From the NCBI RefSeq assembly GCF_000024025.1, contig NC_013131.1, positions 6,696,001 through 6,760,000 of the forward strand: 64,000 nt of DNA, read 5' to 3'. A program made the position numbers and the translations under genes. Positions 16,318 through 44,031 of this stretch are shown here, in pieces; the first letter of the stretch is position 1, and the number at the start of each line of letters is the position of its first letter. This stretch comes from Catenulispora acidiphila DSM 44928 (GTDB lineage Bacteria; Actinomycetota; Actinomycetes; Streptomycetales; Catenulisporaceae). The notes below the pieces were generated by a model. The model did no database searches. It saw only the letters and a program-made list of their open reading frames with translations, and had not been told where the DNA came from.

Positions 16318-18240
16318 GTGGACCCCGTGCCGAAGCCACCGTCACCGATCCGGCCCGTGCTGTCGCGCCTGTCGCATCCTGTCGCCACGCTCAAGTCTTC
16401 GCGCCGCGTTCGTGCGCTGCGCCTTTTGGCGTCTGTCAGTCCGGCTCTGGCGTGGACGGTCGGCGCGTTCGTCGTGGCCGAGGCGGTGTTGCCGAACCTG
16501 ACGCTGATCGCGATGGGCCGCGCGACCGGCCGCATCCCGGCCGCCGCCCGCGACGGGCTGAGCTCGGGTGCGGGGCACTCGCTGCTGGTCGCACTGGCCG
16601 TCGCCGGCGTGTGTTACGGCTTTTCGCTGCTGCGCGGTCCGGCGGAGGACGCGCTGTCCTCGGTGGTGCGGGCGCGGATGGTGGTGACGTTGCAGCGCCG
16701 CCTGGTCACGGCGGTCAGCGCGCCGGCGGGCATCGCGCATCTGGAGGACTCCGAGACGCTCGACCGGCTGGCCAACGTGCAGGGCCAGCTGATGAACGCC
16801 GCGCCGGCCGACGCGCCGATGACGATCGCCTCGCAGCTCGGCGGGTGGCTGTCCGGGACGATGGCGTGCGTCGTGCTCTCGACGTTCCGGTGGTGGCTGG
16901 GGCTGGCGATGTTCGCGGCGTGGATCGCGGTGCGGCGCCCCCTCGGGCAGCTGGTGCGGACCCGGGTGAGCAGCTTCCGCGCCGCCGGCGAGCCGCTGCG
17001 CCGCGCCTGGTACCTGTTCGCGCTGGCGACCCGCCCGAACGCGGCGAAGGAGGCGCGGGTCTTCGGCCTCGGCGCCTGGCTGGCCGCCGAACACCGCACG
17101 CACTACGTCAGCGGCCTGACTCCCACCTGGCACGAGATGCGCCGCCAGGGCCGGCGAGTGGCGACGGTCGCGGTCGGGGTCTTCGCGGTGTTCGCCCTCA
17201 GCGCCGGAACGCTCGGCTGGACCGCGTACCACCACGAGATCGGGCTCGGGACGCTGGCGGTGATGCTGACGATGCTGCCCTCGTCGATGACGGTCGGCAC
17301 GGTGTCGATGACCGACTTCCAGCTGGAGATGATGCTCACGGCGGTGCCGGACTTGGACGCGCTCACCGACTCGCTGGTGCCGATGGCTGACGCCGTCGAC
17401 GCGGTCGACGACACCAGCGCCGGGACCAGCGCCGGGACCGTCGATCCGGCGGGGATGCCACGGCGGGACGTCGTCTTCGAGAACGTGGCGTTCCGCTACC
17501 CCGGCGGCGAGTCAGACGTCTTCAGCGACCTGAATCTGACGCTGCGCGCAGGGGAATCGACCGCGTTGGTAGGTGTGAACGGCGCGGGCAAGACCACCCT
17601 GGTCACCCTGCTGGCGCGCCTGCGCGACCCGAGCCGCGGCCGGATCCTCGTCGACGGCCTGCCACTGAACGACCTCCACGTCCGCGACTGGCAGAAGCAG
17701 GTAGCGGTCGTCTACCAGGACTACACGCGCTACCCCCTCACCGCCGAGGAGAACGTCACCCTGAACCTCCTCGGCGGCCCAGTCGACGACGCGGCACTCC
17801 GCCAAGCCGCCGAACGCGCCGGCGCCACAGACCTGATCGACAACCTCCCGAACGGCTGGCGCACCATCCTGTCGCCCCAATACGAAGGCGGCACAGACCT
17901 ATCCGGCGGCCAGTGGCAACGCATCGCCCTAGCCCGCGCCCTCTACGCAATATCCCGCGGCGCAACAGTCCTGATCCTGGACGAGCCCACCGCACAACTC
18001 GACGTCCGCGCCGAAGCAGCCTTCTACGACAGATTCCTCGAGATCACCCAAGGCGTCACCAGCATCGTGATCTCCCACCGCTTCTCCACAGTCCGCCGAG
18101 CAAACCGCATCGCAGTCCTCGACGCCGGCCACATCACCGAACTAGGCAGCCACACCGAACTCCTAGCCCAAGCAGGCACCTACGCGAACCTGTTCACCAC
18201 CCAAGCAGCAGCATTCACCGGCGGACGGAAAAGGGCATGA
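16318..18240 (+). CDS. ABC exporter, fused membrane and ATPase domains (first of pair)
   Basis: 640 residues: a membrane domain of about six helices (1-370) and an ATPase domain (about 385-635) with Walker A GVNGAGKTT (K425), signature LSGGQWQR from L528, and Walker B VLILDEPTAQ. A coupling segment AKEARVFGLGAWLA matches the same place in the exporter at 38839-40740, so the two belong to one subfamily. It starts GTG at 16318, and its TGA overlaps the next gene as ATGA, so the two ABC proteins are translationally coupled and probably form a heterodimer. The 3' third uses noticeably more A-ending codons than the 5' part. Confidence 0.9.
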   Translation: MDPVPKPPSPIRPVLSRLSHPVATLKSSRRVRALRLLASVSPALAWTVGAFVVAEAVLPNLTLIAMGRATGRIPAAARDGLSSGAGHSLLVALAVAGVCYGFSLLRGPAEDALSSVVRARMVVTLQRRLVTAVSAPAGIAHLEDSETLDRLANVQGQLMNAAPADAPMTIASQLGGWLSGTMACVVLSTFRWWLGLAMFAAWIAVRRPLGQLVRTRVSSFRAAGEPLRRAWYLFALATRPNAAKEARVFGLGAWLAAEHRTHYVSGLTPTWHEMRRQGRRVATVAVGVFAVFALSAGTLGWTAYHHEIGLGTLAVMLTMLPSSMTVGTVSMTDFQLEMMLTAVPDLDALTDSLVPMADAVDAVDDTSAGTSAGTVDPAGMPRRDVVFENVAFRYPGGESDVFSDLNLTLRAGESTALVGVNGAGKTTLVTLLARLRDPSRGRILVDGLPLNDLHVRDWQKQVAVVYQDYTRYPLTAEENVTLNLLGGPVDDAALRQAAERAGATDLIDNLPNGWRTILSPQYEGGTDLSGGQWQRIALARALYAISRGATVLILDEPTAQLDVRAEAAFYDRFLEITQGVTSIVISHRFSTVRRANRIAVLDAGHITELGSHTELLAQAGTYANLFTTQAAAFTGGRKRA

Positions 18241-20564
18241 GCAACACGATCCCGACCCCAGCCAACGGCGATGCCGCACACGACGCCGCCACCACAGCGA
18301 GCGCCGCCGCCAACGCTCCGGCCGAAGCCACAACCTCCAGCGCCGCCAACAGTTCCGCGCCGAGCACTACCGCCGGCGCTCCGGTCGAAGCCGCGAACCT
18401 CGCTGCGCCAGCACCCGCAGATACAGCTGCGACAGACACTGCCGCCGACGCTGCCACCCCGAGCGCCGCGAACAGTTCCGCACCGGGTGCCGCCGCCAAC
18501 CGCGCGAGCACCACAACCGGCGCCGCGAACGGGTCCGCGCCGAGCACCACCACCACTTCGAGCGCCGCGAGCGATTCCGCGCCAAGCGCCGCCGCCAGGC
18601 CCGCGAGCACCACTACTTCTAGCGCCACCCCCACCAGCGCCGCGAACAGTTCCGCGCCGAGCATCACTCCTGGCGCTGCGGCCGAAGCCGCACCCGCATC
18701 GGCAGCCGCTCCCGCTCCCGACCCATCGCCCGACTCCCCCGCGCGCACCTTCGAGCCCGCGCGGCGGCGGCTTCGGCGGCGGTTGTTCGGGGTGCTGGTC
18801 GGGGCGGGGTTTCGGGCGGCGCCGGGGATGATGGTTGCGGCGACTGTGATGAGTTTGTTGGGGACGGCGGCGTCGGTCAGTTATCCCGTCGGGTATCGGA
18901 TCATGGTTGATGCTGCGTTGCGGCATGATGCGGGCCGGGTTGTTGTCGGTGTCTGCATTGTCGCTGTGTTGTTCAGTGCGGGGTGGTTGCTGCAGAACTT
19001 GGCTGTGGCGCAGAGCTCGCCGTTGACCGACACCGTGAACGTCTACCATGGCGAGCGCATTGCCATGCTGGTCAACGATATTCCTGGCCTGCATCACTAT
19101 GAGGACCCTGAAGTGCTGCGTGAGGTGGAGCAGCTGCGGGATGGTCGGCGTGGGTTGGCTGCGGCGCCTCGGCAGATCACCGGGATGGTCTCCAATGCGA
19201 TCCGCATCGGGACCATTGCCGTCCTGCTGGCGACCGTCTATCTGCCGGTGCTGCTGGTGCCGCTGGCGGCTGTGGCGCCGGCGATGGCTAATCGGCGGGC
19301 GTCGAAGATTGCCAAGAAGAACGAGACTGAGCTGGCGGATGATCGTCGGCTGCTCGGCGATCTGTTCGTCATCACCACGTCCGCTGATACGGCCAAGGAG
19401 CTGCGTACCTACGGTGTCACCGAGGATCTGGCGGTGCGCCACCACCAGCTCGGTGACGCGGTGCGCAAGTCGGCGGTCGGTGCGGCGTTGCGCGGGGCGG
19501 CGTGGGAGGCCGCGGGGTGGCTGTTCTACGCGGCGTTCTTCATCGCGGCGATCGTCGTCCTGGTGCTGCGCGCGACGCACGGCCAGGTGTCGCCGGGGCA
19601 GATCGTCATGGTCGTCAGCCTGCTGCGACGGGTGCAGACCCAGTTGTCCTCGGCTTCGGACACCGCCGGCAGCCTGGCGAACTCCATCCGCAACGCCAAG
19701 CGCATGCTCTGGCTGCAGGACTACGCGCAGACCCAGATCCCCACCGGAACCCTAGAGGCACCGCGCACCCTCACCGAGGGCATCCGCCTGGACCACACCG
19801 CCTTCGCCTACCCGAACTCCACCAAGCAGGTCCTGCACGACCTCCTCCTGGACCTCCCCGCCGGCTCCACCGTCGCCCTCGTCGGCGAGAACGGCGCGGG
19901 CAAGACCACCCTCGTCAAGCTCCTCACCGGCATGTACGCCCCCAGCGACGGCAGGGTCCTGATCGACGGCACCGACCTCGCCGACCTGGACCTGACCTCC
20001 TGGCGCGGCCGCGTCACCGCGACGTTCCAGGACTTCGTCCGCTTCCAGACCCCCGCCGCCCAAGCCGTCGGCCTCGGCGACCTGCCGCGCATCGACGACG
20101 AAGCCGCGCTGGCCGCAGCCGTCGAGCGCGCCGAGGCCACCCCGGTCGTCGCGAAGCTGCCCGACGGCCTGAACACCCAGCTGGGCCGCTACTTCCCCGG
20201 CGGCCGCGAGCTGTCCGGCGGCCAGTGGCAGCGCATCGCCCTGGCACGCGGCCAGATGCGCGAGCAGCCCCTGCTGACCGTCCTCGACGAGCCGACCGCG
20301 GCACTGGACGCCGTGACCGAAGCGGCAGTCTTCGACCGGCACGTACGCATCGCCGCCGAACGCCGCGAACAAGGCGCGATCACGCTGTTCGTCTCGCACC
20401 GTTTCTCCACGGTCCGCGCAGCGGATCTGATCGTGGTCCTCGAAGGCGGCCGCGTCGTCGAGACCGGCAGCCACGAGGACCTCATGGCTGCCGACGGGCA
20501 CTACGCGCAGCTGTACACGTTGCAGGCGCGCGCATATCTCGACGAGGCGGACGGCACCAAGTAG
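18237..20564 (+). CDS. ABC exporter with long low-complexity N-terminus (second of pair)
   Basis: 775 residues. The first ~165 are almost only Ala, Ser, Thr, Pro and Asn with repeats of the form AANSSAPS; such a cytoplasmic tail is unusual for ABC exporters. Then come a six-helix membrane domain and an ATPase domain with Walker A GENGAGKTT (K556), ELSGGQWQR, and LLTVLDEPTA. The ATG overlaps the previous stop by four bases. Residues AKELRTYGVTEDLAVRHHQL correspond to the coupling region of its partner. The stop lies 10 bases from the convergent MDR gene. Substrate unknown; drug or peptide export is likely. Confidence 0.88.
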   Translation: MSNTIPTPANGDAAHDAATTASAAANAPAEATTSSAANSSAPSTTAGAPVEAANLAAPAPADTAATDTAADAATPSAANSSAPGAAANRASTTTGAANGSAPSTTTTSSAASDSAPSAAARPASTTTSSATPTSAANSSAPSITPGAAAEAAPASAAAPAPDPSPDSPARTFEPARRRLRRRLFGVLVGAGFRAAPGMMVAATVMSLLGTAASVSYPVGYRIMVDAALRHDAGRVVVGVCIVAVLFSAGWLLQNLAVAQSSPLTDTVNVYHGERIAMLVNDIPGLHHYEDPEVLREVEQLRDGRRGLAAAPRQITGMVSNAIRIGTIAVLLATVYLPVLLVPLAAVAPAMANRRASKIAKKNETELADDRRLLGDLFVITTSADTAKELRTYGVTEDLAVRHHQLGDAVRKSAVGAALRGAAWEAAGWLFYAAFFIAAIVVLVLRATHGQVSPGQIVMVVSLLRRVQTQLSSASDTAGSLANSIRNAKRMLWLQDYAQTQIPTGTLEAPRTLTEGIRLDHTAFAYPNSTKQVLHDLLLDLPAGSTVALVGENGAGKTTLVKLLTGMYAPSDGRVLIDGTDLADLDLTSWRGRVTATFQDFVRFQTPAAQAVGLGDLPRIDDEAALAAAVERAEATPVVAKLPDGLNTQLGRYFPGGRELSGGQWQRIALARGQMREQPLLTVLDEPTAALDAVTEAAVFDRHVRIAAERREQGAITLFVSHRFSTVRAADLIVVLEGGRVVETGSHEDLMAADGHYAQLYTLQARAYLDEADGTK

Positions 20565-33125: not shown

Positions 33126-34427
33126 ATGGACGCTGTCACAGCGGACGGGGCGACGACACGCGAGCTGGAACGCATGATGGCGGAGTTCCCGGATCTGCCG
33201 CCCGAGGCCATCGTCAAGCAGGACATACTGCGGCAGGGCCTCGCGTTCAGCCCGGATGCGTTGCGCGTGGCCAGCGGCTACAAGCCCAAGGACTACTTCA
33301 TCTTCACCTTCGACCTGGTGCCGGTGGCCGAGATGGCCAAGCACGCGCAGTTCCGGGCGCCGGAGGAGATCCGGATGACCGGCGGCCCGTACGACCTGCG
33401 GCGGACCGTGGTGTCGACGCGGGTGGCGCCGGACAGCCCTTATGTGGTCGAGCTGCGGGAGGGCAAGCTCGCACTGAACTGCGAGGGGGTGTTCCTGGCC
33501 GAGTTGGAGTTCCCGCCGATCCCCGGCTACTACGAGCACACGCTGTCCTCGGGCAAGAAGATCAGCGAGATCGCCCCGGCCATCGAGTGGGGCTACCTGG
33601 TCTACCTCACGGTGTACCGGCTGTGCCAGTACTGGGGGCGGGACGAGGAGTGCCGTTTCTGCGACCTCAATGAGAACTTCCGCCAGCAGCGCGCCAACGG
33701 CCGGGAGTACACGGCGGTGAAGGAGCTCGACGACATCGTCGAGGCGATGTCGCTGATCAACAAGTACGACGACGTGACCCGGGCCTACACCGTCACCGGC
33801 GGCTCGATCACCAAGAAGCTGGACGGCATGCGCGAGGGCGAGTTCTACGCGCGCTTCGCCGAGGCCATCGAGTCCCGCTTCGCCGGCCGCTGGATCCCCA
33901 AGGCGGTGGTGCAGGCGCTGCCGCTGGACGAGGTCAAGATGCTCTTCGAGGCCGGCTACCGCATCTACCACCCGAACTACGAGGTGTGGGACGCCGACCT
34001 GTTCAGCTGGATCTGCCCCGGCAAGGACCGCTACGTCGGCCGGGACGAGTGGGTCAAGCGCATCCTGGACTCCGCGGACATCTTCGGCCCGAGCAACGTC
34101 ATCCCGAACTTCGTCGGCGGCGTGGAGATGGCCGAGCCGCACGGCTTCACCGACATCGACAAGGCGATCGCCTCCACGGCCGAGGGCCTGGACTTCTTCA
34201 TGAGCCACGGTGTGATGCCCCGCTTCACCACCTGGTGCCCGGAGCCGACCAGCAACCTGGGCCGGCAGACGGGCCCGTCGCTGGAGTACTTCGTGAAGCT
34301 GCTGTACGCCTGGCGCGAGACCTTCGAGAAGTACTCGCTGCCGGTGCCTCCCGGCTACGGCAGCCCCGGTCCCGGGAACGCCGAATTCTCGGTGAGCGCG
34401 TTCATGGACGTCATCCGCACCAGTTGA
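33126..34427 (+). CDS. Radical SAM protein with C-x8-C-x2-C cluster motif
   Basis: 433 residues. Three cysteines, C167, C176 and C179 in LCQYWGRDEECRFC, replace the usual CxxxCxxC spacing; all can ligate a 4Fe-4S cluster if the longer first loop is allowed. AYTVTGGSI and YHPNYEVWD resemble the later strands of a radical SAM barrel. The first 150 residues (KPKDYFIFTFDLVPV, LNCEGVFLAELEFPPIPGYY) form an unrecognised extra domain. No SPASM C-terminal cysteines are present. It is followed by the PBP gene after 164 bases, on the same strand. The substrate is unknown; a role in the peptide cluster further down is possible but not shown. Confidence 0.78.
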   Translation: MDAVTADGATTRELERMMAEFPDLPPEAIVKQDILRQGLAFSPDALRVASGYKPKDYFIFTFDLVPVAEMAKHAQFRAPEEIRMTGGPYDLRRTVVSTRVAPDSPYVVELREGKLALNCEGVFLAELEFPPIPGYYEHTLSSGKKISEIAPAIEWGYLVYLTVYRLCQYWGRDEECRFCDLNENFRQQRANGREYTAVKELDDIVEAMSLINKYDDVTRAYTVTGGSITKKLDGMREGEFYARFAEAIESRFAGRWIPKAVVQALPLDEVKMLFEAGYRIYHPNYEVWDADLFSWICPGKDRYVGRDEWVKRILDSADIFGPSNVIPNFVGGVEMAEPHGFTDIDKAIASTAEGLDFFMSHGVMPRFTTWCPEPTSNLGRQTGPSLEYFVKLLYAWRETFEKYSLPVPPGYGSPGPGNAEFSVSAFMDVIRTS

Positions 34428-34591
34428 GGTACCCCGTCCCGGCGGCGGCGGACCGAACCGCCGCCGGACCATTCTGACTTTGACAAGTCGAACAAAGGAA
34501 CGCCCTGAGGTCATCCGGAAATCCCCGACGGTGTAATTTGGCCGCTACCGCCTTTGTGCGGAACAGCTGACGCACTTGGGGAGTGGGATTT

Positions 34592-36364
34592 ATGACGGGG
34601 CGAGGAATCACTGCTGCACGGACGACGGCCGGCGGCTTGGTGGCGGCGGCCCTGCTCGCCACCAGCGCGTGCGGCGGCGGATCCTCGCATCCGTCGACCG
34701 GTTCGGGCCAGAAGGCCGGCGCGGGCGCGACCACCAGTTCCTCGCCGCAAGCCACCCCGCAGAGCGTGGCGCAGGCGTTCCTGACCGCGTGGAGCGGCGG
34801 CGACTTCGCCGGCGCCGCGGCGCTCACCGACGACGCGACCGACGCCTCGACCCGGCTCAAGGCCGTCATGGGCTCGCTGACCCCGCAGAAGCTGACGCTG
34901 ACCCTCGGATCGCAGGAGAACGTGCCGTCCGGTGCGAACACCGCCTCGCCGGCGCAGTCCAGCTCCGGCGCGCCGAGTTCCCCGGCGTCCTCGGCCTCCG
35001 GCTCGGCGGCCGCGCCGTCGCCGGCCGCCGCGCCGCTGGCCCGGTACGGCTTCAAGGTCGACGCCGACTTCGGCAACAACCTGGTCTGGAGCTACTCCTC
35101 GACGATGGACCTGGTGGCGAACCCGGCCGGCGCGCCGGTGGTGCACTGGTCCTCGGCGGTCATCAACCCCCAGCTCGGCGGGTCCGCGCTGCTCAAGGCC
35201 GTGCCGCCGAAGCAGATCGTGGTGGACGCCGCGGGGACCCAGATCAACACCACGAAGCACCCGACGCTGGGACCGGCGGTCGCCGCGCTGGCCGCCCACG
35301 TCCCGCCGAACACCGCGCCGACGCAGCTCACCGTCGAGTTCGTCGATCCCAAGTCCGGCAGCCAGCTCCCGCAGTCGGCGAGCTGGCCGCTGGGTGCCGC
35401 CACCGGGACGACCGCGACGGTCAAGACCACGATCGACGACAAGGTGCAGACCGCGCTGGAGAAGGCTCTGGTCGGCCACCCCAACGGCGGGATCGTCGCG
35501 ATCCGGCCCTCGACCGGCGACATCCTCGGCATGGCGGGCAACGACCCGGGCATCACGGCCCTGCCGTACAAGGCCGCCCGCGCCCCGGGGTCCACGTTCA
35601 AGGTGATCACCACCGCCCTGGCGCTCCAGCAGGGCCTGACCACCGGCCAGTCGGTGAACTGCAGCCCCACCGCGACCGTCGAGGGCAAGGTCATCACCAA
35701 CGACACGAGTCTGGCCGCGGGCATCAAGAACGCCAGCTTGAAGGACGCCTTCGAGCAGTCCTGCAACACCGCCTTCGTCCACCTGGCGCTGGACGGCAAG
35801 CTCGGCAGCGACTACAGCGCGCTGTCGAACGAGGCGAAGAACTACTTCGGCATGAACCAGAAGTGGGACCTGGGCATGGGCCCGGCCACCTACGGCACCG
35901 CCGGCGACCAGCAGGTCCCGCCGGCGGACGGCCTGGGCACGTTCGCCCGCGACGCCTTCGGCCAGGGCGACATCGAGATGTCCCCGCTGACCATGGCCTC
36001 GGTCGCCGCGACCGTGGCCAACGGCAGCTTCAAGCAGCCGATCCTGGTCGCCGGCACCCCGCAGATCAGCGCCACCGCGCTGCCGGCGAACGTCGACTCC
36101 CAGCTCACGACCCTGATGCAGGGCGTCATGTACTCCAGCGAGGGCACCGCCTACCCGGTGTTCCACACCATGTCGGGCCTGGGCGGCAAGACCGGCTCGG
36201 CGGAGTCGAACGACACCCCGACGACGAAGAAGACCGACAGCTGGATGATCGTGTTCGACAAGAAGCACGACATCGCCTTCGGCGCCCTGGTGCTCAACGG
36301 CGGCTTCGGCGTCCAGAACGCCGGGCCGGCCATCAAGACCGCGCTGGGGAACCTCGGCTACTAG
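34592..36364 (+). CDS. Lipoprotein class B penicillin-binding protein (MecA-like layout)
   Basis: 590 residues. Lipoprotein signal with lipobox ATSAC (Cys near residue 24), a Gly/Ser linker, an NTF2-like MecA_N-type domain (SVAQAFLTAWSGGDFAGAAALTDDA), a dimer-type linker domain and a transpeptidase domain with SxxK at S334-T-F-K337, SxN at S390-C-N392 and KTG at K533. It cross-links peptidoglycan outside the membrane and may have low beta-lactam affinity. ATG at 34592 has GGGGAG 8 bases upstream. A strong terminator follows, so it is not on the same mRNA as the SARP. It could be the target-protecting gene of the adjacent peptide cluster (inference). Confidence 0.92.
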   Translation: MTGRGITAARTTAGGLVAAALLATSACGGGSSHPSTGSGQKAGAGATTSSSPQATPQSVAQAFLTAWSGGDFAGAAALTDDATDASTRLKAVMGSLTPQKLTLTLGSQENVPSGANTASPAQSSSGAPSSPASSASGSAAAPSPAAAPLARYGFKVDADFGNNLVWSYSSTMDLVANPAGAPVVHWSSAVINPQLGGSALLKAVPPKQIVVDAAGTQINTTKHPTLGPAVAALAAHVPPNTAPTQLTVEFVDPKSGSQLPQSASWPLGAATGTTATVKTTIDDKVQTALEKALVGHPNGGIVAIRPSTGDILGMAGNDPGITALPYKAARAPGSTFKVITTALALQQGLTTGQSVNCSPTATVEGKVITNDTSLAAGIKNASLKDAFEQSCNTAFVHLALDGKLGSDYSALSNEAKNYFGMNQKWDLGMGPATYGTAGDQQVPPADGLGTFARDAFGQGDIEMSPLTMASVAATVANGSFKQPILVAGTPQISATALPANVDSQLTTLMQGVMYSSEGTAYPVFHTMSGLGGKTGSAESNDTPTTKKTDSWMIVFDKKHDIAFGALVLNGGFGVQNAGPAIKTALGNLGY

Positions 36365-36493: not shown

Positions 36494-37291
36494 GTGGTGA
36501 TCGACATCGCAGTGCTGGGAACCGTCCAAACCGTCGTGAGATCCGGCCTTCGCACCACCCCGGTCGGACTGTCGTACCTGGAAAGAAGCCTGATGGCCAC
36601 GCTGGCCTGCACGCCGGGCCGGGTGGTCTCGGTCGGGCGTCTGGTGGAGGTGCTCTGGGAGGACGCGCCGCCGACCGGTGCGCGCACCCGGGTCCAAGGG
36701 CTCGTCTCGTCCCTGCGCAAACGCCTGGCCGCGGCCGGCGGCCAGAGCGGCACGCTGGCCACGGACCCGGGCGGCGGCTATCTGTTGCGCGTCGCGCCGG
36801 GCTGCGTCGACGCCGAGCGTTTCCGTTCTCTGATTCACCAAGCCTCGGCGCAGACCGAGCGCGGCACCCCCGGCTGCGCCGCCTCGACGTGGCAGAGCGC
36901 GCTGGCGCTGTGGCGGGGTCCGGCGTTCGACGGTTTGCGCTCCTACCTGCTGCAAGCCGAGGCGCTGCGTCTGGAGGAGATGCGGATGACCGCGCTGGAG
37001 CACTGCCTCAGCGCCGATCTGCACGCCGGACGGCACGAGCACGCCATCCCCGAGCTGAGCCGACTCAGTGCCCTGCATCCGGGCCGGGAACGGTTGGTCG
37101 GTCAGCTGATGATCGCGCTGAACGCCGTCGACCGGCACGCCGAAGCTCTCGGTGCCTACCGCGCCTTGCAGCTGTATCTGCGGGAGCAGTACGGCACCAG
37201 TCCCGGCCCGCGACTGCGGCGGATCCACGAGCTGATGCTGCGCGCCCCGGTCGGCGACGGCGAACTGCTGGCGGCTCTGACAACGGCGTGA
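36494..37291 (+). CDS. Small SARP-type activator (winged HTH plus BTAD)
   Basis: 265 residues. N-terminal OmpR-like DNA-binding domain (about 5-95: LACTPGRVVSVGRLVEVLWEDAPPTGARTRVQGLVSSLRKRLA) and bacterial transcriptional activation domain (about 100-250: ALALWRGPAFDGL, HAGRHEHAIPELSRLSALHPGRERLVGQLMIAL). This is the classical size of cluster-situated SARPs such as ActII-ORF4. It starts GTG (36494 or 36497). Its stop is 30 bases before the 11-bp repeat array at 37321-37430, the kind of DNA that SARPs bind, so it very probably activates the Cys-rich peptide operon downstream. Confidence 0.9.
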   Translation: MVIDIAVLGTVQTVVRSGLRTTPVGLSYLERSLMATLACTPGRVVSVGRLVEVLWEDAPPTGARTRVQGLVSSLRKRLAAAGGQSGTLATDPGGGYLLRVAPGCVDAERFRSLIHQASAQTERGTPGCAASTWQSALALWRGPAFDGLRSYLLQAEALRLEEMRMTALEHCLSADLHAGRHEHAIPELSRLSALHPGRERLVGQLMIALNAVDRHAEALGAYRALQLYLREQYGTSPGPRLRRIHELMLRAPVGDGELLAALTTA

Positions 37292-37320: not shown

Positions 37321-37430
37321 TTCGCTGCGGACTCGCAGCGCAATCGCAGTGGGTTCGCAGTGGGTTCGCAGTGGGTTCGCAGTGGGTTCGCAGTGGGTTC
37401 GCAGTGACTTCGCAGCGGTTCCGCAGCGCG
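37321..37430 (+). repeat. Tandem 11-bp repeats TTCGCAGTGGG, likely SARP operator
   Basis: Nine exactly contiguous 11-bp units from 37332 to 37430, preceded by a degenerate one (TTCGCTGCGGA, 37321-37331). Four units (37354-37397) are identical TTCGCAGTGGG; the rest differ at 1-5 positions outside the core TCGCAG. SARPs bind heptameric direct repeats at 11-bp spacing, one DNA turn, upstream of target promoters. A -10-like GACAAT is at 37443-37448, 12 bases past the array, and the peptide gene starts at 37482. Confidence 0.85.
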
Positions 37431-37481
37431 AGTGAGAACACTGACAATGTCCAGTTCACTCCCTCATGGAAGGACTCCTTC

Positions 37482-37688
37482 ATGACCAAGCTCATCAGCG
37501 CGTTCGGCGACAAGCTGCTGTCCCGCGCACTCCGCACCGAGACCGCGGGCGCCTGCGTTCCCGAGCACGGCCAGTCCTGCGGCGGCCACTGCTCCGGCGG
37601 CTGGTGGTGGGAGTGCTCCGGCTCCTACTTCGACTGCAACGGCAACTGCGTCTGTCCGACCAACTGGCGGCACGTCGGCGCCTGCTGA
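37482..37688 (+). CDS. Cys-rich secreted peptide precursor (candidate disulfide-rich bacteriocin/RiPP)
   Basis: 68 residues, ATG at 37482 with GGAAGGA 7 bases upstream; the open frame extends upstream through the repeat array but that part is not coding. Residues 1-24 form a charged amphipathic leader (KLISAFGDKLLSRALRTE) with no Sec-type hydrophobic core, ending A22-G23-A24. Residues 25-68 contain eight cysteines (25, 33, 37, 45, 52, 56, 58, 68), spaced C-x7-C-x3-C-x7-C-x6-C-x3-C-x-C-x9-C, plus Gly and four Trp. The C-x3-C and C-x-C pairs recall defensin-like folds. Genes for oxidative folding, export and cleavage follow directly. Activity is unknown. Confidence 0.8.
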   Translation: MTKLISAFGDKLLSRALRTETAGACVPEHGQSCGGHCSGGWWWECSGSYFDCNGNCVCPTNWRHVGAC

Positions 37689-37782
37689 CCGCGCTGAATC
37701 CCCCGCGCGGGCGGCACCAGGGGCGACTTCGCCGCCCTGCCGTGCCGTCCGCGCACCCGACCATCGCAAGGAGGCCGCACCA

Positions 37783-38310
37783 GTGAGCTACGTGGATCCG
37801 GCTTGTCGCGGCCTGCTCGCGGCGGTGTTCCTGGTGGCCGTGGTGGGCAAGGTCCGCTCTCGCGCCGCCTTCTCCGCCTTCGCCGCGTCGCTCGCCGATG
37901 TCAGGCTTCTGCCGGTCCGGCTGCGCCGCGCGGCGGCGGTCGGGGTGACGGCTGCCGAAGCCGTCGCAGCCGTCCTGCTGCTCACTCCCCTCGCTGAGGC
38001 GGCAGTCGCCGGCTTCGCCCTGGCGTTCGCCCTGCTCGCGGTGTTCGCCGCCGGCGTGGCGCTGGCGCTGCGCCGCGGGGAGGCGATCCGCTGCCTGTGC
38101 TTCGGCTCCGACGCCGGCGCGATGGACCGCTCGCACGTCGTGCGCAACGCCGTCCTGGCCGCGGTGGCGCTGACCGGCCTCATCAGTTCCCTGACGTCGA
38201 CCGCGGCCGCCGCGCCCGCCGGACTCATCGGCGCGGCCGGAGCCGGGGTCGCTCTCGGAGCGCTGGCGACCCGCTGGGACGACCTGCGCTACCTGCTGTC
38301 GCACTCATAA
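37783..38310 (+). CDS. MauE/DoxX-like membrane redox protein
   Basis: 175 residues with four membrane helices. GTG at 37783 has AAGGAGG 8 bases upstream. The MauE-type motif R-C104-L-C106-F-G lies in a loop after the third hydrophobic stretch, a vicinal pair suited to passing electrons between a thioredoxin-like partner and quinone. In methylamine utilisation MauE works with MauD to form the six disulfides of the MauA subunit (established). Here it lies 94 bases behind a peptide with eight cysteines and 25 bases before a thioredoxin-like gene, so the same job is inferred. Confidence 0.85.
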   Translation: MSYVDPACRGLLAAVFLVAVVGKVRSRAAFSAFAASLADVRLLPVRLRRAAAVGVTAAEAVAAVLLLTPLAEAAVAGFALAFALLAVFAAGVALALRRGEAIRCLCFGSDAGAMDRSHVVRNAVLAAVALTGLISSLTSTAAAAPAGLIGAAGAGVALGALATRWDDLRYLLSHS

Positions 38311-38335
38311 GGATCCCCGGAACCTAAGGACCACC

Positions 38336-38842
38336 ATGCTCGCCGTGCTCACCGCCGTCGTCGCCGTCCTCGTCCCGCTCACCGCCGTCAACCTGATCAT
38401 GCTGTTCGCCGTGATCCGGCGGCTGCGGGAGGCCGAGTCGCGGCAGGCGCCGCCGAACGTCGCACTGCCCGCCGCCGGAACCCGGATCGGCGCCGACGCC
38501 GCACCGCTGCTCGCCGATAAGAAGTTCGCCGCCTGCGTCCTAGTGGGCTGCGAGCCTTGCGCCCAACAGATCGAGGCGCTGCGCACCGACACCCGCTTCG
38601 CCCCGGAGGACATCGTGTTCTTCGTCTTCGGCGGCGACGATCCGGCCACCACGGCCGACCTCGCCGCGTCGGTGTCCGGTCTCGGCACGGTCGTGCAGAC
38701 CGCGGTCGGCGGCGCGATCGCCGCCTCGCTCGGCGGCATCACCAGCTTCCCGACGCTGCTGCGCACCGACGGCGAGCAGATCCTGGCCGCCGAACGGTCC
38801 TGGAGCGCCCTCGCGACGGCCGGTGCGGTGTCAGCCCATTGA
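38336..38842 (+). CDS. Membrane-anchored thioredoxin-like protein (MauD/TlpA type)
   Basis: 168 residues. An N-terminal membrane anchor (LAVLTAVVAVLVPLTAVNLIMLFAVI) is followed by a shortened thioredoxin fold with active site G-C72-E-P-C75 and the cis-proline loop SFPTLL. The active site faces outside the cell if the anchor is Nin. AAGGA lies 5 bases before the ATG. It probably pairs with the MauE-like protein to oxidise or isomerise disulfides of the exported peptide. The stop overlaps the start of the ABC gene as TTGA, giving translational coupling. Confidence 0.87.
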   Translation: MLAVLTAVVAVLVPLTAVNLIMLFAVIRRLREAESRQAPPNVALPAAGTRIGADAAPLLADKKFAACVLVGCEPCAQQIEALRTDTRFAPEDIVFFVFGGDDPATTADLAASVSGLGTVVQTAVGGAIAASLGGITSFPTLLRTDGEQILAAERSWSALATAGAVSAH

Positions 38843-40740
38843 GTACCCGGGCCGCCCCGGCCGCGCTGGCGCTGAGTTGGCGCGCGGCGCCGCTGGCCTC
38901 GGTGGCGTCGCTGGCCGTCACGCTCGCCCTCGGGGTGCTGCCGGCCACGACCGCCTGGACCAGCAAGCTCCTGCTGGACGAGCTGGCCCGGGGGCACACG
39001 GTGCGCGTCGGCCGTGCGTCCTGGCTGGTCGCCGCCGGAGCCGCCCTCGCCGCGGCGATGACGATCCTGACGCTTGTCAGTACTCAGCTATCCCGGCGCG
39101 TCCAACGCGCCATCACGTTGCGCACGCAGGACCAGCTCTACGAGCGGGTCAACGCCATCGCCGGTCTGCGCTCCTTCGAGGACCCGGTCTTCCAGGACCG
39201 GCTGCGCCTTGCCGAGCAGGGAGCGCAAGGCGCGCCGGGCGCGATCACCAAGCTGCTGACCGAGACCGTCCGCAACGCCATCGTCATCCTGGGGTATCTG
39301 GGAACCCTGATGGTGCTGTGGCCGCCGATGGCCGGCTTTCTGGCGCTCGCGGCGGTCCCGGCCTTCCTCGCGCAGCGCGAGCTGGCCCGGCGGCGCGCCG
39401 GGACGACCGAGAAGATGATGGAGACGGCGCGCAAACGGTACTTCTACCAGGCGTTGCTGACCGACGCCGCCTCGGCGAAAGAGGTCCGGCTGTTCGGGCT
39501 CGGCGGGTTCTTCCACGGCCGGCTGCTGGCGATGCTGCGCGCCACGACGGACGCGGATCTGGCGGTCGAGGCGTATGCGGCCCGGGTCCAGGGTCTGCTG
39601 GGCTTGCTCACGGCAGCGGTCGCGGCTGTCGCCGGGATCGTCGTGGTCCACGGGATCGCCGACGGCCGCGTCTCCCTCGGCGGGTTCATGCTGTTCACGG
39701 TGGCGGTCGGCGGGGTGCAGAGCGCGGTGTCGGCGATCACCACGCAGGCTTCGACCAGCGGACAGTACCTGCGCTTGTTCCGCAGCTGGCGCGACCTCGT
39801 CGACGCCCCGGCGGACCTGCCGTCCGGGACGACTCCGGCTCCGGCGCTGCGGCACGGCGTCGAACTGCGCGACGTCTGGTTCCGCTACCAGGACGACGGA
39901 CCGTGGGTCCTGCGGGGAGTCAACCTTCTGATTCCCGCCGGTCAGGCGGTCGGACTGGTCGGTCTCAACGGCGCGGGCAAGAGCACGCTGGTGAAGCTGT
40001 TGTGCCGCTTCTACGCCCCCGAGCGCGGCCAGATCCTGTGGGACGGCGTGGACGTCGCAGAGTTCGACATCGCCTCGCTGCGCCGCCGGATCGGCGCCAC
40101 GTTCCAAGACTTCTGCCGCTACGACGCCACCGCGGCGGAGAACGTCGGTCTCGGCGACCTGGACCGGATCGGAGACCTGGCGGCGATCCGGCAGGCGGCC
40201 GCGGACGCCGGGATCGACGCCAAGCTCGCCGGGTTGCGCGACGGCTACGCCACCTTCCTGTCGCGCGTGTTCCGCGACGCGGAGTTGAAGGCCGGCACCG
40301 CGCTCTCCGGCGGCCAGTGGCAGCGGGTCGCCATCGCCCGCTCGCTGATGCGCCGGGACGCGGACCTGCTGATCCTCGACGAACCCGGCTCCGGCCTGGA
40401 TCCGGAGGCCGAGCACGAGGTGCACCTGGCGCTGAGCCGGCATCGCGCGGGGCGTACCAGCCTGCTGATCTCGCACCGCCTCAGCACGCTGCGAGACGCC
40501 GACCTCATCGTCGTGCTGCGCGAGGGACGCGTGGTCGAGCAGGGCGGCCATACCGAGCTGATGGCGGCGCAGACCGACTACGCGCGGCTGTTCCTCACTC
40601 AGGCCGCCGGATACCGCGACACGCCGGAGCCGGTGTCAGCGCCATCGCCATCGCCGACATCCGAGCCGCCGTCCGAGCCGAGATCCGAGCCGACGCCGGA
40701 TCCGGAGCCGTTCCATGCGGCGATCGGTTCGGCGTCATGA
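38839..40740 (+). CDS. ABC exporter of the peptide cluster
   Basis: 633 residues, TTG start overlapping the previous stop. Six-helix membrane domain (1-330) then ATPase domain with Walker A GLNGAGKST (K381), signature LSGGQ from L489 and LLILDEPGSGLD. No C39 peptidase domain precedes the helices, so leader removal needs another enzyme; the S26 peptidase gene overlaps its stop. AKEVRLFGLGGF matches AKEARVFGLGAW in the exporter at 16318. The C-terminal 35 residues are a Pro/Ser/Glu-rich tail. As a single gene it would act as a homodimer. The likely substrate is the peptide encoded at 37482. Confidence 0.9.
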   Translation: MSTRAAPAALALSWRAAPLASVASLAVTLALGVLPATTAWTSKLLLDELARGHTVRVGRASWLVAAGAALAAAMTILTLVSTQLSRRVQRAITLRTQDQLYERVNAIAGLRSFEDPVFQDRLRLAEQGAQGAPGAITKLLTETVRNAIVILGYLGTLMVLWPPMAGFLALAAVPAFLAQRELARRRAGTTEKMMETARKRYFYQALLTDAASAKEVRLFGLGGFFHGRLLAMLRATTDADLAVEAYAARVQGLLGLLTAAVAAVAGIVVVHGIADGRVSLGGFMLFTVAVGGVQSAVSAITTQASTSGQYLRLFRSWRDLVDAPADLPSGTTPAPALRHGVELRDVWFRYQDDGPWVLRGVNLLIPAGQAVGLVGLNGAGKSTLVKLLCRFYAPERGQILWDGVDVAEFDIASLRRRIGATFQDFCRYDATAAENVGLGDLDRIGDLAAIRQAAADAGIDAKLAGLRDGYATFLSRVFRDAELKAGTALSGGQWQRVAIARSLMRRDADLLILDEPGSGLDPEAEHEVHLALSRHRAGRTSLLISHRLSTLRDADLIVVLREGRVVEQGGHTELMAAQTDYARLFLTQAAGYRDTPEPVSAPSPSPTSEPPSEPRSEPTPDPEPFHAAIGSAS

Positions 40741-41174
40741 GCAGATCCGGACACGCGGCACTCGTCGCGGCTGCCGGGATGGCCCTCGCGGCGGCGCTGA
40801 TCGCCCGGCGGAGGTTCACCGTCGTCGTGGTGGCCGGGGCGAGCATGAATCCGACGTACCAGGACGGCGACCGGCTGCTCGTGCGGCGCGGCGGGCAACG
40901 GCCGGAGCGCAGGGCGGTCGTGGTGTTCCGGACGCCGCCGCAGATCGGCGCCACCGAGCTGCGCTGGCTCGTGAAGCGGGTCGTGGCCGTGCCGGGCGAT
41001 CCCGTCCCGCGGGATGTGCGGCGTGCCGCCGGCGGCGCGGCCGTGGTGCCGCCGGGGCGGCTGGTCGTGCGCGGCGACAACCCGCACAGCGTCGACTCCC
41101 GGCGCTTCGGCTTCGTGGCGGCGGCGGATGTCCTGGGAGTGGCCGCGAAGCGGCTAGATCACTTAGAGAGATGA
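40737..41174 (+). CDS. Short S26-family signal peptidase
   Basis: 145 residues, ATG overlapping the ABC gene stop. One N-terminal membrane helix (HAALVAAAGMALAAALIA), catalytic S36 in GASMNPTY and catalytic K80 in WLVKRVVAVPGD, then the conserved GDNPHSVDSRRFG box. It is smaller than housekeeping LepB and similar to dedicated S26 proteases such as NiSOD-maturation type. Placement as the last gene of the operon and the A-G-A motif before C25 of the peptide suggest that it removes the leader outside the membrane. Confidence 0.9.
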   Translation: MSRSGHAALVAAAGMALAAALIARRRFTVVVVAGASMNPTYQDGDRLLVRRGGQRPERRAVVVFRTPPQIGATELRWLVKRVVAVPGDPVPRDVRRAAGGAAVVPPGRLVVRGDNPHSVDSRRFGFVAAADVLGVAAKRLDHLER

Positions 41175-41193: not shown

Positions 41194-44031
41194 GTGTACT
41201 TCGGCGTACTCGGGACCATGGTGGTACGCGCCTCGGACACCGATCCGATCGCCATCCCCGCCGCCTTGCAGCGCGGCGTGCTGGCGATCCTGCTCTCGCG
41301 CGCGAACCTGGTCGTCTCCCGCGACGAACTGGCCGAAACCCTGTGGGACGGCCAGAATCCCGGCACGGCGCGGACCACGCTGGCCGCGTACGTCTCGCGG
41401 CTGCGGCGCGTCCTGGGCCCGGACGCCGGCCGGCGGATCGGCACCCGGCCGCCGGGATACGTGATCGAGATCGACGCCGAGGAGTACGACTGCGCCCGCG
41501 CCGGGGATCTGCACGCCCGGGCGCGCGCGGCGGCCGAGCGCGGTGATTGGGCGGCGGTGCAGGGCCTGGCCGCCGACGGGCTGCGGCTGTGGCGCGGGAC
41601 GCCGTACCAGGACGTGCCGGTGCCGCGGCTGCACCGGGAGGACGCCGCCGCGCTGGACGCGGTGCGGGTGCAGCTGACCGAGCTGACCGTGGAAGCGGAT
41701 CTGCGGCTGGGGCGCGGCGACAGCGCCATCAGTACCCTGATGCGGCTGACCGAGCAGGAGCCGCTGCGGGAGAGCTTCTCCGAGAAACTGATGATGGCGT
41801 TGGCCGCGCAGGGCAGACGCGCCGAAGCCCTCGCCGTGTTCCACCGGGCGCGCAAGGTGCTCCGCGAGAATCTGGGTATTGATCCGGGACCGGATCTGGC
41901 TCGCGCGCATCACGACGTGCTGGCGGCTTCCGGCGGGGACCGCCCGGCGTCGGCGGCGGCGTCGGCAGCAGCAGCGTCGGCAACGGGATCGGCGGCGGCC
42001 TCACCGGAGCGGATCCGAGTCCGCGGACCGCGACAGCTCCCGCCGGCCGCCCGGCACTTCACCGGCCGGGAAGCGGAGCTGGCGGCGATGGACGAGGCCG
42101 CGGCGTCCGGCGAGGTGCTGGTCGTCAGCGGCCTGGCCGGCGTCGGCAAGACCGCGCTGACCACGCACTGGGCCCACCAAGCCGCGCCGCGCTACCCCGA
42201 CGGCCAGGTGTTCGTCGGGCTGCACGGTTTCGACCCGCACAGCGTGCCGATGACCGCGCACACCGCGTGTTCGATCCTGCTGGAGTCCCTGGGTCTGGCC
42301 ACCTCGGAGATCCCCGCCGATCCCGACGCGCGCACGGCGCTGTACCGGACGGTCGTCGCCGGCCGGCGGCTGCTCCTGGTGCTGGACGACGCGTGGGACG
42401 CCGCGCAGATCAGACCACTGATTCCGGGTACGGCCGGCAGCCAGGTCGTGGTGACCAGCCGCAACCGGCTCGCCGGGCTGGTCGCCGCCGACGGCGCGCG
42501 GCCGATCCTGCTGGCGCCGCTGGACAACGGCCGCTCGATGGAGTTGCTCGCGCGGCGCTCGGGAATCCGGCCGCGCCCTGACGAGCCGGCCGACACCGCC
42601 GCCGCCGAGGCGCTGGCTGCGGCATGCGCCGGATTGCCGCTGGCGCTGACGATCGCGGCAGCCCGGCTTCAGCTGGACCCGGACCTGTCCTGGTCGGCGC
42701 TCACCGAGCGGCTGCACGACCGCCGCGGCGCGCTGTCGACGCTGGACGTCGGGGAGGCCAGCGGGAGCCTGCGTGCCGTGTTCTCGATGTCCTATCAGCG
42801 GTTGAGCCGATCGGCAGCGGCGTTGTTCCGACTGCTCGGCATCCATCCGGGCCCTGACATCGCCATGGCCGCGGCCGTGTCGTTGGCGGGCAGCGCCGAC
42901 ACCTCGAGCACCGAGCAGGCGCTCGAGGAACTCCTGAGCGCCAGCCTGCTGCACCGGCACGCCGGCCGGTTCCGGTTCCACGATCTGGTCCGTGCCTACG
43001 CCGCCGAAACAGCACTCGAAGACTCCCCCGAGGTACGCACCGCCGCGCGTGTGCGCATCCACGACCATTGCCTGCGCTCGGCGATCGAGGCCGACCGTAT
43101 GCTGCGCCCGACGCGCGAACCGCTGAGCCTGCCGGCTCCGGTGCCCGACGTGCGCCCGGAGTCCTTCGCCGACGTCGCCGCAGCCACGGCGTGGTTCCAG
43201 GAGGAACGCCAGGTGCTCGCAGCGGTGGTCGCCTTGGCCTCGCGCGAGCAGGACGACGAGTACGCGCACCGCCTGCCGTGGGCTATCAGCACCTACCTGA
43301 ACCGCCGGGGCGAATGGCCCGCGCTGGCCGAACTCCACCTCCTGGGCGCCGAGGCCGCCGACCGCACCGGCGACCCCCGAGCCCGGGCGCGCACGCACAC
43401 CGACGCCTCCAGCTTCCTGCTCCAGATCCTCTCCTTCGACGAGGCGCGGCGGCATCTGGAACTGTCGATGGCGCTGTGGCAGGAACTCGGCGACCTGCGC
43501 GGGGCATGGCTGTCCGAGCACAACATGGGCCACCTGTGCCACAAGGAGGGCCGGCACGCCGAAGCCGCCGAGCACGCACGCCGCGCGCTGGAGCACGCCC
43601 GCGCCCGCGGCTGGGCACCGGACGTCGCGCTGGCCCTGTCCACCGCCGCGTGGAGTCTGACCCACTGCGACGACCACGCCGGGGCGCTGCTGTTGGCCGC
43701 CGAGGCGATCGAGCTGGACCGGTGCGCCGGGGACCGCAACGGCGAGGCGCACGCGTACGACACCGTAGGGCTGGCGTCGTTCCGCCTCGGCCGGTATCCC
43801 GAGGCCCTGGCCGCGTATCACAAGGCATTGCGGTTGTTCGAGGACCTCGGCGACATACGGTTCCGGGGCAGGGTCCTGATGCGCATCGGCCAGGTGCGGC
43901 GGGAAAGCGGGGAGACTGCGGCGGCGCACAGCGCCTGGAGCCAGGCGTTGAAGCTTTTCGAGCAGGTCGGGGCGCCGGAGTCCGACGAGCTCCGGGAGAT
44001 GCTGGACGGGCTGGACGGTTCGGACTCCTGA
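41194..44031 (+). CDS. Large AfsR-type SARP regulator (BTAD, NB-ARC, TPR)
   Basis: 945 residues: winged-helix DNA-binding domain (about 1-95), BTAD (about 100-255), low-complexity linker, NB-ARC STAND ATPase (P-loop G313-LAGVGK-T320, Walker B LLLVLDDAWD at 393-402), winged-helix region and TPR repeats (about 690-930: ALAAYHKALRLFEDLGD). ATP- and ligand-controlled activator of secondary metabolism. It starts GTG only 19 bases after the signal peptidase gene; TGATAC just upstream could be an own -10 for a leaderless mRNA. Together with the small SARP it brackets the peptide operon. Confidence 0.92.
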   Translation: MYFGVLGTMVVRASDTDPIAIPAALQRGVLAILLSRANLVVSRDELAETLWDGQNPGTARTTLAAYVSRLRRVLGPDAGRRIGTRPPGYVIEIDAEEYDCARAGDLHARARAAAERGDWAAVQGLAADGLRLWRGTPYQDVPVPRLHREDAAALDAVRVQLTELTVEADLRLGRGDSAISTLMRLTEQEPLRESFSEKLMMALAAQGRRAEALAVFHRARKVLRENLGIDPGPDLARAHHDVLAASGGDRPASAAASAAAASATGSAAASPERIRVRGPRQLPPAARHFTGREAELAAMDEAAASGEVLVVSGLAGVGKTALTTHWAHQAAPRYPDGQVFVGLHGFDPHSVPMTAHTACSILLESLGLATSEIPADPDARTALYRTVVAGRRLLLVLDDAWDAAQIRPLIPGTAGSQVVVTSRNRLAGLVAADGARPILLAPLDNGRSMELLARRSGIRPRPDEPADTAAAEALAAACAGLPLALTIAAARLQLDPDLSWSALTERLHDRRGALSTLDVGEASGSLRAVFSMSYQRLSRSAAALFRLLGIHPGPDIAMAAAVSLAGSADTSSTEQALEELLSASLLHRHAGRFRFHDLVRAYAAETALEDSPEVRTAARVRIHDHCLRSAIEADRMLRPTREPLSLPAPVPDVRPESFADVAAATAWFQEERQVLAAVVALASREQDDEYAHRLPWAISTYLNRRGEWPALAELHLLGAEAADRTGDPRARARTHTDASSFLLQILSFDEARRHLELSMALWQELGDLRGAWLSEHNMGHLCHKEGRHAEAAEHARRALEHARARGWAPDVALALSTAAWSLTHCDDHAGALLLAAEAIELDRCAGDRNGEAHAYDTVGLASFRLGRYPEALAAYHKALRLFEDLGDIRFRGRVLMRIGQVRRESGETAAAHSAWSQALKLFEQVGAPESDELREMLDGLDGSDS

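Follow-up and report, generated by a model that had tools for sequence, protein, structure and literature searches.

Our results suggest that five contiguous genes of Catenulispora acidiphila DSM 44928 form a cassette for making and exporting a small disulfide-rich peptide. The genes occupy positions 37482–41174 of the window, i.e., of the whole 64,000-nucleotide stretch of DNA that we analyzed (NC_013131.1, positions 6,696,001 to 6,760,000). They encode a precursor peptide, a MauE-family membrane protein, a thioredoxin-like protein, an ATP-binding cassette (ABC) exporter, and an S26 signal-peptidase-like enzyme. Comparison with related loci indicates that the cassette is real, recurrent, and coherent and that it serves disulfide-rich peptides, as was partly foreseen in 2020. 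We consider it probable that its product is one exported, disulfide-bonded peptide that is exported by the ABC protein, oxidized by MauE and the thioredoxin-like protein, and freed of its leader by S26. With less confidence, we lean towards the view that such loci define a distinct class of disulfide-only exported peptides in Actinobacteria and Myxococcota, with one leader grammar, a fixed cassette, and freely diversifying cores that carry even numbers of cysteines.

The five genes of the cassette

An initial annotation, made from the sequence alone, had proposed this gene set, and the open reading frames (ORFs) and translations place all five genes, each on the forward strand, where it had put them. 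The precursor of 68 amino acids (37482–37688) starts with an ATG, and a ribosome-site-like GGAAGGA (37468–37474) lies seven bases 5' of it. It is followed by the genes for MauE (37783–38310; GTG start), the thioredoxin-like protein (38336–38842), the permease-ATPase of the exporter (38839–40740; TTG start at 38839; PF00005, E=3.6e-29), and S26 (40737–41174). The overlaps TTGA and ATGA that had been described between genes are present in the sequence, and, again in agreement with the annotation, we recognized no modification enzyme in the operon.

Translation yields the described precursor: the leader MTKLISAFGDKLLSRALRTETAGA, which has 24 residues (37482–37553) and ends in A-G-A, and the core CVPEHGQSCGGHCSGGWWWECSGSYFDCNGNCVCPTNWRHVGAC, which has 44 residues (37554–37685). 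The eight cysteines lie at residues 25, 33, 37, 45, 52, 56, 58, and 68, and the predicted monoisotopic mass of the core with four disulfides is 4766.74. GC content at third codon positions (GC3) is 0.96 in the precursor ORF. For a pair of peptides from the same genus that are likely orthologues (L009 and L011), nonsynonymous divergence (dN) is 0.039 and synonymous divergence (dS) 0.287. The codon changes between them are five synonymous and none nonsynonymous in the leader, and six synonymous and five nonsynonymous in the core. Because of this pattern, it is very likely that the ORF is translated and that its leader is held fixed while the core is freer to change. Judged by its sequence and surroundings, the precursor is of the kind known from ribosomally synthesized and post-translationally modified peptides (RiPPs): a conserved leader, a variable core, a fixed site between them, and adjoining maturation genes.

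The MauE-like membrane protein is recognized by PF07291 (E=1.3e-23) and carries the expected C-L-C motif (C104-L-C106), both cysteines of which are invariant in 6 of 6 aligned sequences. On its own, the thioredoxin-like protein of the window matches none of the redox families in Pfam. Among its homologues, 31 of 50 aligned sequences match AhpC-TSA and 25 of 50 match Redoxin, and a profile built from them finds ResA/DsbF-type structures in the PDB (best E=4.3e-12). The cysteine pair of its CEPC motif is invariant in all 50 aligned sequences, out of 58 found. The annotation's membrane thioredoxin is thereby upheld as a TlpA/ResA-type protein, with an anchor that is putative and was judged by eye from an N-terminal hydrophobic stretch. 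In two loci (L021 and L111) MauE and the thioredoxin-like protein are a single ORF, i.e., a natural fusion.

For the exporter, alignments to two NCBIfam peptidase-exporter models begin only at profile position 157 (TIGR03796) and 470 (TIGR01193), so that no C39 domain is seen, which is what the annotation had said. We therefore rejected a double-glycine peptide with a C39 exporter: the leader ends in AGA, and the C39 region is unaligned. Elsewhere in the window (about 17567–20293) there are other stretches that resemble the exporter DNA of the cassette, with 65–82% identity over short pieces.

The S26 enzyme is of the bacterial type (TIGR02227, E=5.2e-21; 75.2 bits against a cut-off of 47). 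Ser36 and Lys80, presumably the catalytic pair, are invariant in 37 of 37 aligned sequences, out of 45 found. Two other assignments were rejected: an archaeal-type S26 (LppS/SipW), for which TIGR02228 gives 18 bits against a cut-off of 51.85 and which the invariant Lys80 also speaks against, and a nickel-superoxide dismutase maturation protease, for which TIGR02754 gives 35.3 bits, below its cut-off of 63.25.

Related loci, the shared leader, and even cysteine counts

The same genome contains a second full five-gene operon (4,239,710–4,243,479), the 8-cysteine peptide of which is 47% identical to that of the window. Four further loci of the same genus, from three genomes, have the peptide as well, with leaders that run into the core as ETAGAC or ESAGAC. 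To look beyond the genus, we anchored a survey on MauE, which has a match at E<=1e-8 in 82 of 394 genomes of the same class. About 10 kb were read around each of 60 matches, down to E=1e-14 and leaving aside the own genome and G182:C74. Four named loci (from Pyxidicoccus, Lentzea, and two Nonomuraea) and seven others (the window, L009, L020, L021, L022, L024, and L025) brought the number to 71, and ten myxobacterial loci to 81. Rows that repeat a locus were set aside (L056 and L059 are L024 and L025; L158 is L057), and L085 and L119, which overlap on one contig, were both counted. L023 was left out. It contains a leader-like peptide at about 12018–12092 (..KINSWGDRMLARVLRRETAGAC..), with no MauE, thioredoxin, or S26 found nearby by tblastn.

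Precursors were sought with a rule. On either strand, an ORF had to encode 40–115 amino acids with an A-x-A at residue 19–47 and no cysteine before that site, six or more leader residues drawn from L, I, V, M, and F, and four or more cysteines past the site at a density of 10%. The rule finds 72 ORFs in 61 of the 81 loci, a descriptive yield, and none in 20 control loci, which were hand-picked from weaker MauE matches (E about 1e-14 to 1e-8). In five Markov shuffles it finds matches in 2, 3, 1, 1, and 0 of 81 loci. Within the 60 loci of the class survey the precursor is present in 41, and in 23 of the 33 sampled genomes that have such a locus. Purpose-built hidden Markov models (HMMs) for MauE, thioredoxin, ABC, and S26 show the four side by side in many loci; precursor and all four partners occur together in 56 of 81. 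The initial annotation had named missing conservation of the peptide next to such operons as the outcome that would speak against it, and the related loci show the opposite: a small cysteine-rich peptide accompanied by a dedicated export and disulfide cassette.

Cysteine parity was not part of the rule. All 72 ORFs nevertheless carry an even number of cysteines: two have 4, 43 have 6, 25 have 8, and two have 10. Two ORFs without the family leader were dropped by eye (a 4-cysteine ORF in L083 and an antisense 6-cysteine ORF in L157), which leaves 70 of 70 family precursors with even counts. Precursors outside the rule (L077, L082, L109, L111, L113, L116, L120, and L127) are also even. At 50% identity the 72 ORFs fall into 30 core clusters, or 28 without the two that were dropped, so that the pattern is not that of one core repeated; related loci are, of course, not independent. 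Even counts throughout are best accounted for by cysteines that pair up in disulfides. A 7-cysteine ORF with a Sec-like N-terminus (L149), which had appeared under a looser rule, is unrelated and is not matched by the final one.

Across the family, the leaders tend towards GDRLL..LVP...AxA. The A-x-A itself is part of the search rule; GDRLL, which is common, and the proline at -7, present in 35 of the 72 ORFs, are not. Mean pairwise identity is 0.39 for the leader and 0.33 for the core, a figure to which the common cysteines contribute. The annotation had called the leader amphipathic and not of the Sec type. In the window its maximum hydropathy over nine residues is 1.00, and only 4 of the 70 family leaders reach at least 2.0. 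We therefore rejected a Sec-secreted peptide, given that the hydropathy of these leaders does not amount to a hydrophobic signal core (no purpose-made signal predictor was applied). The amphipathic moment is 0.47 compared to 0.29 +- 0.14 in shuffles, i.e., amphipathicity is moderate.

The family extends to a second phylum. Of 147 genomes from the class to which Pyxidicoccus fallax belongs, 11 contain an ABC that scores above 750 bits, well separated from the next best at about 442 bits. Ten of these 11 myxobacterial loci contain a precursor with the ending ..AGA| and the gene order peptide, MauE, thioredoxin, ABC, S26. Nine of the precursors are of a 6-cysteine type (e.g., ..SEVSAGA|CIPEHGQCC...NCYGSC.....C), and one, in L156, has eight cysteines. 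The remaining locus, L155, contains the thioredoxin, ABC, and S26 genes, and the profiles found neither MauE nor a precursor there. Since the 6-cysteine cores of Nonomuraea and Lentzea are nearly identical to the myxobacterial core, the cassette evidently crosses phyla.

Some loci depart from the simple layout. Two or three tandem precursors with related but different cores precede one cassette in L065 (2306–2898), L072 (2272–2975), and L112 (2445–2910; all in oriented coordinates). A second Lentzea precursor (L127, 1501–1708), with eight cysteines and the leader end ..KVDVGAAC, is followed by a thioredoxin-like ORF with CEPC instead of by MauE.

How the peptide may be matured

From gene content, conservation, the shared leader, cysteine parity, and co-occurrence we infer how the peptide would be transported, oxidized, and cleaved and what it might do. 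Regulators of the Streptomyces antibiotic regulatory protein (SARP) type, which flank the operon on both sides, would turn it on. The leader would keep the core inactive and direct it to the ABC exporter, through which the precursor would leave the cell, as the gene content and the missing Sec-type signal suggest. Outside the cell, the anchored thioredoxin-like protein and MauE would form or shuffle disulfides until all cysteines are paired; the even-cysteine rule and the natural MauE-thioredoxin fusions support this step. S26, its active site presumably facing outward, would then cut past A-x-A and free the core (residues 25–68) with four disulfides, a step supported by the co-occurrence of S26 with A-x-A leaders. 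The product is most likely a specialized metabolite such as an antimicrobial or signaling peptide.

The annotation had cast S26 as the leader protease, and co-occurrence makes this likely. S26 is present in 57 of the 61 loci with a rule match compared to 6 of the 20 without one (Fisher p=4.6e-8); in six loci that at first seemed to be without it, it lies on the opposite strand (L065, L080, L083, L084, L091, and L098). The best evidence comes from four loci that have no S26 (L109, L111, L113, and L116). In their 8-cysteine precursors there is no A-x-A; instead, ..A(L/V/M)R closes the leader and (D/E)C follows it. By eye, their cores resemble those of L094 and L095, from the host's order, where A-x-A and S26 are both present. 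This joint loss of S26 and A-x-A argues that the pair works together. As a group, these four loci represent a variant cassette without S26.

Several observations weigh against our interpretation. First, the yield of the rule is descriptive because the rule was written after many loci had been seen. Second, the pairing of S26 and precursor is imperfect. Precursor loci without S26 in the stretch read are L021, L024 (contig edge), and the overlapping L085/L119. L120, a weak match to the leader profile (E=0.34), has an AEA site and six cysteines but no S26. Among the 14 loci with neither rule match nor S26, an AxA-less precursor was seen in only four. Conversely, six loci have S26 without a rule match: in L077 (VSA site) and L082 (AQA site, four cysteines) precursors exist outside the rule, and in L078, L100, L103, and L155 no precursor was found. 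Third, the amphipathic moment exceeds z=1 in 39 of the 70 leaders, i.e., it is moderate only. Fourth, the AlphaFold2 (AF2) model of the precursor is weak (mean pLDDT 63, pTM 0.38) and its cysteine pairing unreliable. Fifth, TlpA/ResA-type proteins are often reductants, so that MauE and the thioredoxin-like protein may isomerize disulfides or keep cysteines reduced. Finally, a GNAT acetyltransferase is common to four related loci (L093, L102, L108, and L114), which also share a sensor kinase along with a response regulator, and extra modification is therefore possible in some loci.

One could argue that a housekeeping signal peptidase cuts the peptide and that the S26 of the operon has another substrate. 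The four precursor loci without S26 and the AEA site of L120 fit this explanation, which we nevertheless consider unlikely: a local S26 accompanies the precursor in 57 of 61 loci, and the S26-less variants also do without A-x-A.

One could also argue that the exported peptide binds metal, similar to metallothioneins or chalkophores, and that MauE and the thioredoxin-like protein hold its cysteines reduced until the metal is bound. The core in the window is rich in cysteine and contains three histidines, and the reducing ability of TlpA/ResA-type proteins would suit this role. Metal clusters do not demand even cysteine numbers, yet 70 of 70 precursors have them; the cysteine spacing differs across the 28–30 core clusters, and the annotated shared neighbor clusters include no metal-handling family. 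Metal binding is hence improbable.

There is similarly little chance that the peptide is an ordinary defensin-type bacteriocin with a CS-alpha-beta fold, which the redox genes adjoin by accident. The annotation had predicted a defensin-like product, and the core does contain a CxxxC and a later CxC. FtsX permease-ABC ATPase pairs, which often give peptide immunity, lie in the four S26-less loci, and L089 and L096 each contain an FtsX relative; these genes hint at antimicrobial activity in a minority of loci. In the paralogue of the window peptide, however, CxxxC becomes CxxxxC, and the spacing is not kept in relatives. The AF2 model has a leader helix (residues 7–20) and three core strands but, at its low confidence, no helix in the core. 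Neither the model nor the peptide sequence has a significant match, in fold or in the PDB respectively, so the defensin label is not supported. Moreover, the redox genes accompany the peptide in two phyla.

Very unlikely, finally, is further modification of the core (e.g., to lanthionines or sactionines) by enzymes nearby or elsewhere in the genome, with incidental disulfides: some RiPP pathways do use unclustered enzymes, and the GNAT acetyltransferase points the same way, but the cysteine counts are even, a dedicated redox pair is present, and shared genes other than SARP are rare (enzymes elsewhere in the own genome were not searched for). Seventeen ORF clusters are shared by four or more of the 61 precursor loci. 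SARP is the most widely shared accessory gene (25 of 61), six clusters are frames that overlap it, and the ten others are each found in at most six loci, so that no modifying enzyme is widely shared. Of the nine among these ten that were scanned, one is a LysM/amidase-type protein (six loci, all myxobacterial), one is an ABC ATPase (four loci), three are the acetyltransferase, kinase, and response regulator named above, and four are without a Pfam match.

Neighboring genes and known systems

Upstream of the cassette lies a SARP-type regulator (36494–37291, forward strand; PF03704 (BTAD) E=1.3e-38, PF00486 (Trans_reg_C) E=4.7e-10), and directly downstream of S26 an AfsR-like SARP-NB-ARC-TPR regulator (41194–44031, forward strand), recognized by its domain matches; 25 of the 61 precursor loci contain a homologue of it. 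Between the upstream regulator and the precursor, Tandem Repeats Finder reports an 11-bp tandem array at 37322–37430, with 7.5 copies of the unit TCGCAGTGGGT at 37344–37426 and degenerate flanks. SARP regulators bind 11-bp direct repeats, and the array is a candidate region for such binding. From its position, the upstream regulator possibly controls the operon. No such array was reported by Tandem Repeats Finder in L009 or seen by eye in 260 upstream bases in L020, L021, and L022. Two genes upstream of the precursor is a penicillin-binding transpeptidase with a MecA_N-like domain (34583–36364). It separates the cassette from an ORF (33126–34427) with the stretch CQYWGRDEECRFC, by which it looks like a radical-SAM-type protein.

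If our interpretation is correct, the cassette is a general factory for secreted disulfide peptides. Bacteria are seldom viewed as dedicated makers of disulfide-rich mini-proteins, and our results point to a large, mostly uncharacterized family of disulfide-bonded peptides. Such a family would amount to a reservoir of stable peptide scaffolds, and its leader could serve as a tag for the production of disulfide-rich peptides.

The annotation's claim that the system is undescribed stands in part. In 2020, decRiPPter flagged three candidate RiPP families in Streptomyces with mauE, one of them also with mauD, and all three with precursors that contain eight or more cysteines (PMC7794033). As far as the available text goes, a disulfide role of MauE (proposed, with a citation) and a role in RiPP precursor modification are suggested there, and the strict filter demanded a transporter, a peptidase, and a regulator per cluster (PMC7794033); ABC and protease partners are therefore implied, though unnamed. 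By description, the window operon is alike: its mauE adjoins a precursor that reaches the bound of eight cysteines, below which the 43 six-cysteine ORFs of our wider set of 72 fall. The differences from the available text are S26, the common leader, the A-x-A site, the parity rule, and the spread beyond Streptomyces, and no product of those families is shown there (PMC7794033). Neither S26 nor a signal peptidase is mentioned in the available main text of a 2023 review of leader proteases (PMC10885120). Among the open-access matches listed, in a search that left subscription papers and bioRxiv largely outside, we recognized no other description of the cassette. In the literature searched, what appears to be new is the pairing of S26 with the leader, the shared leader itself, the even-cysteine rule, and the second phylum.

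The nearest precedent for S26 is LppS of the LPP system, a signal-peptidase-I-like RiPP leader peptidase of the archaeal (SipW-like) type, presented in 2026 as new to RiPPs in the text available (PMC13381572). The likeness lies in the type of enzyme used as leader peptidase, a role that is predicted for ours. LppS needs a RiPP recognition element (RRE) for efficient cleavage (PMC13381572), whereas the S26 of the window is of the bacterial type with invariant Ser and Lys. Leader proteases of the signal-peptidase type would then be of two kinds, archaeal and bacterial. In contrast to the LPP system, only disulfides are predicted for our peptide. As in the maturation of methylamine dehydrogenase by MauD and MauE, so far as the available source describes it, a MauE and a thioredoxin-like protein would act on a disulfide-rich substrate (PMC7794033); here the substrate is a short exported peptide, and the pair is encoded alongside an ABC exporter and S26.

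Actifensins, too, are small disulfide-rich actinobacterial peptides; our family lacks their conserved CS-alpha-beta signature and has the MauE/thioredoxin/S26 cassette. Sublancin-type clusters combine BdbA/BdbB oxidoreductases with glycosylation and C39-type export. They share with our cassette the use of dedicated oxidoreductases for an exported peptide, a task for which the window operon has a MauE/TlpA-like pair and S26 instead.

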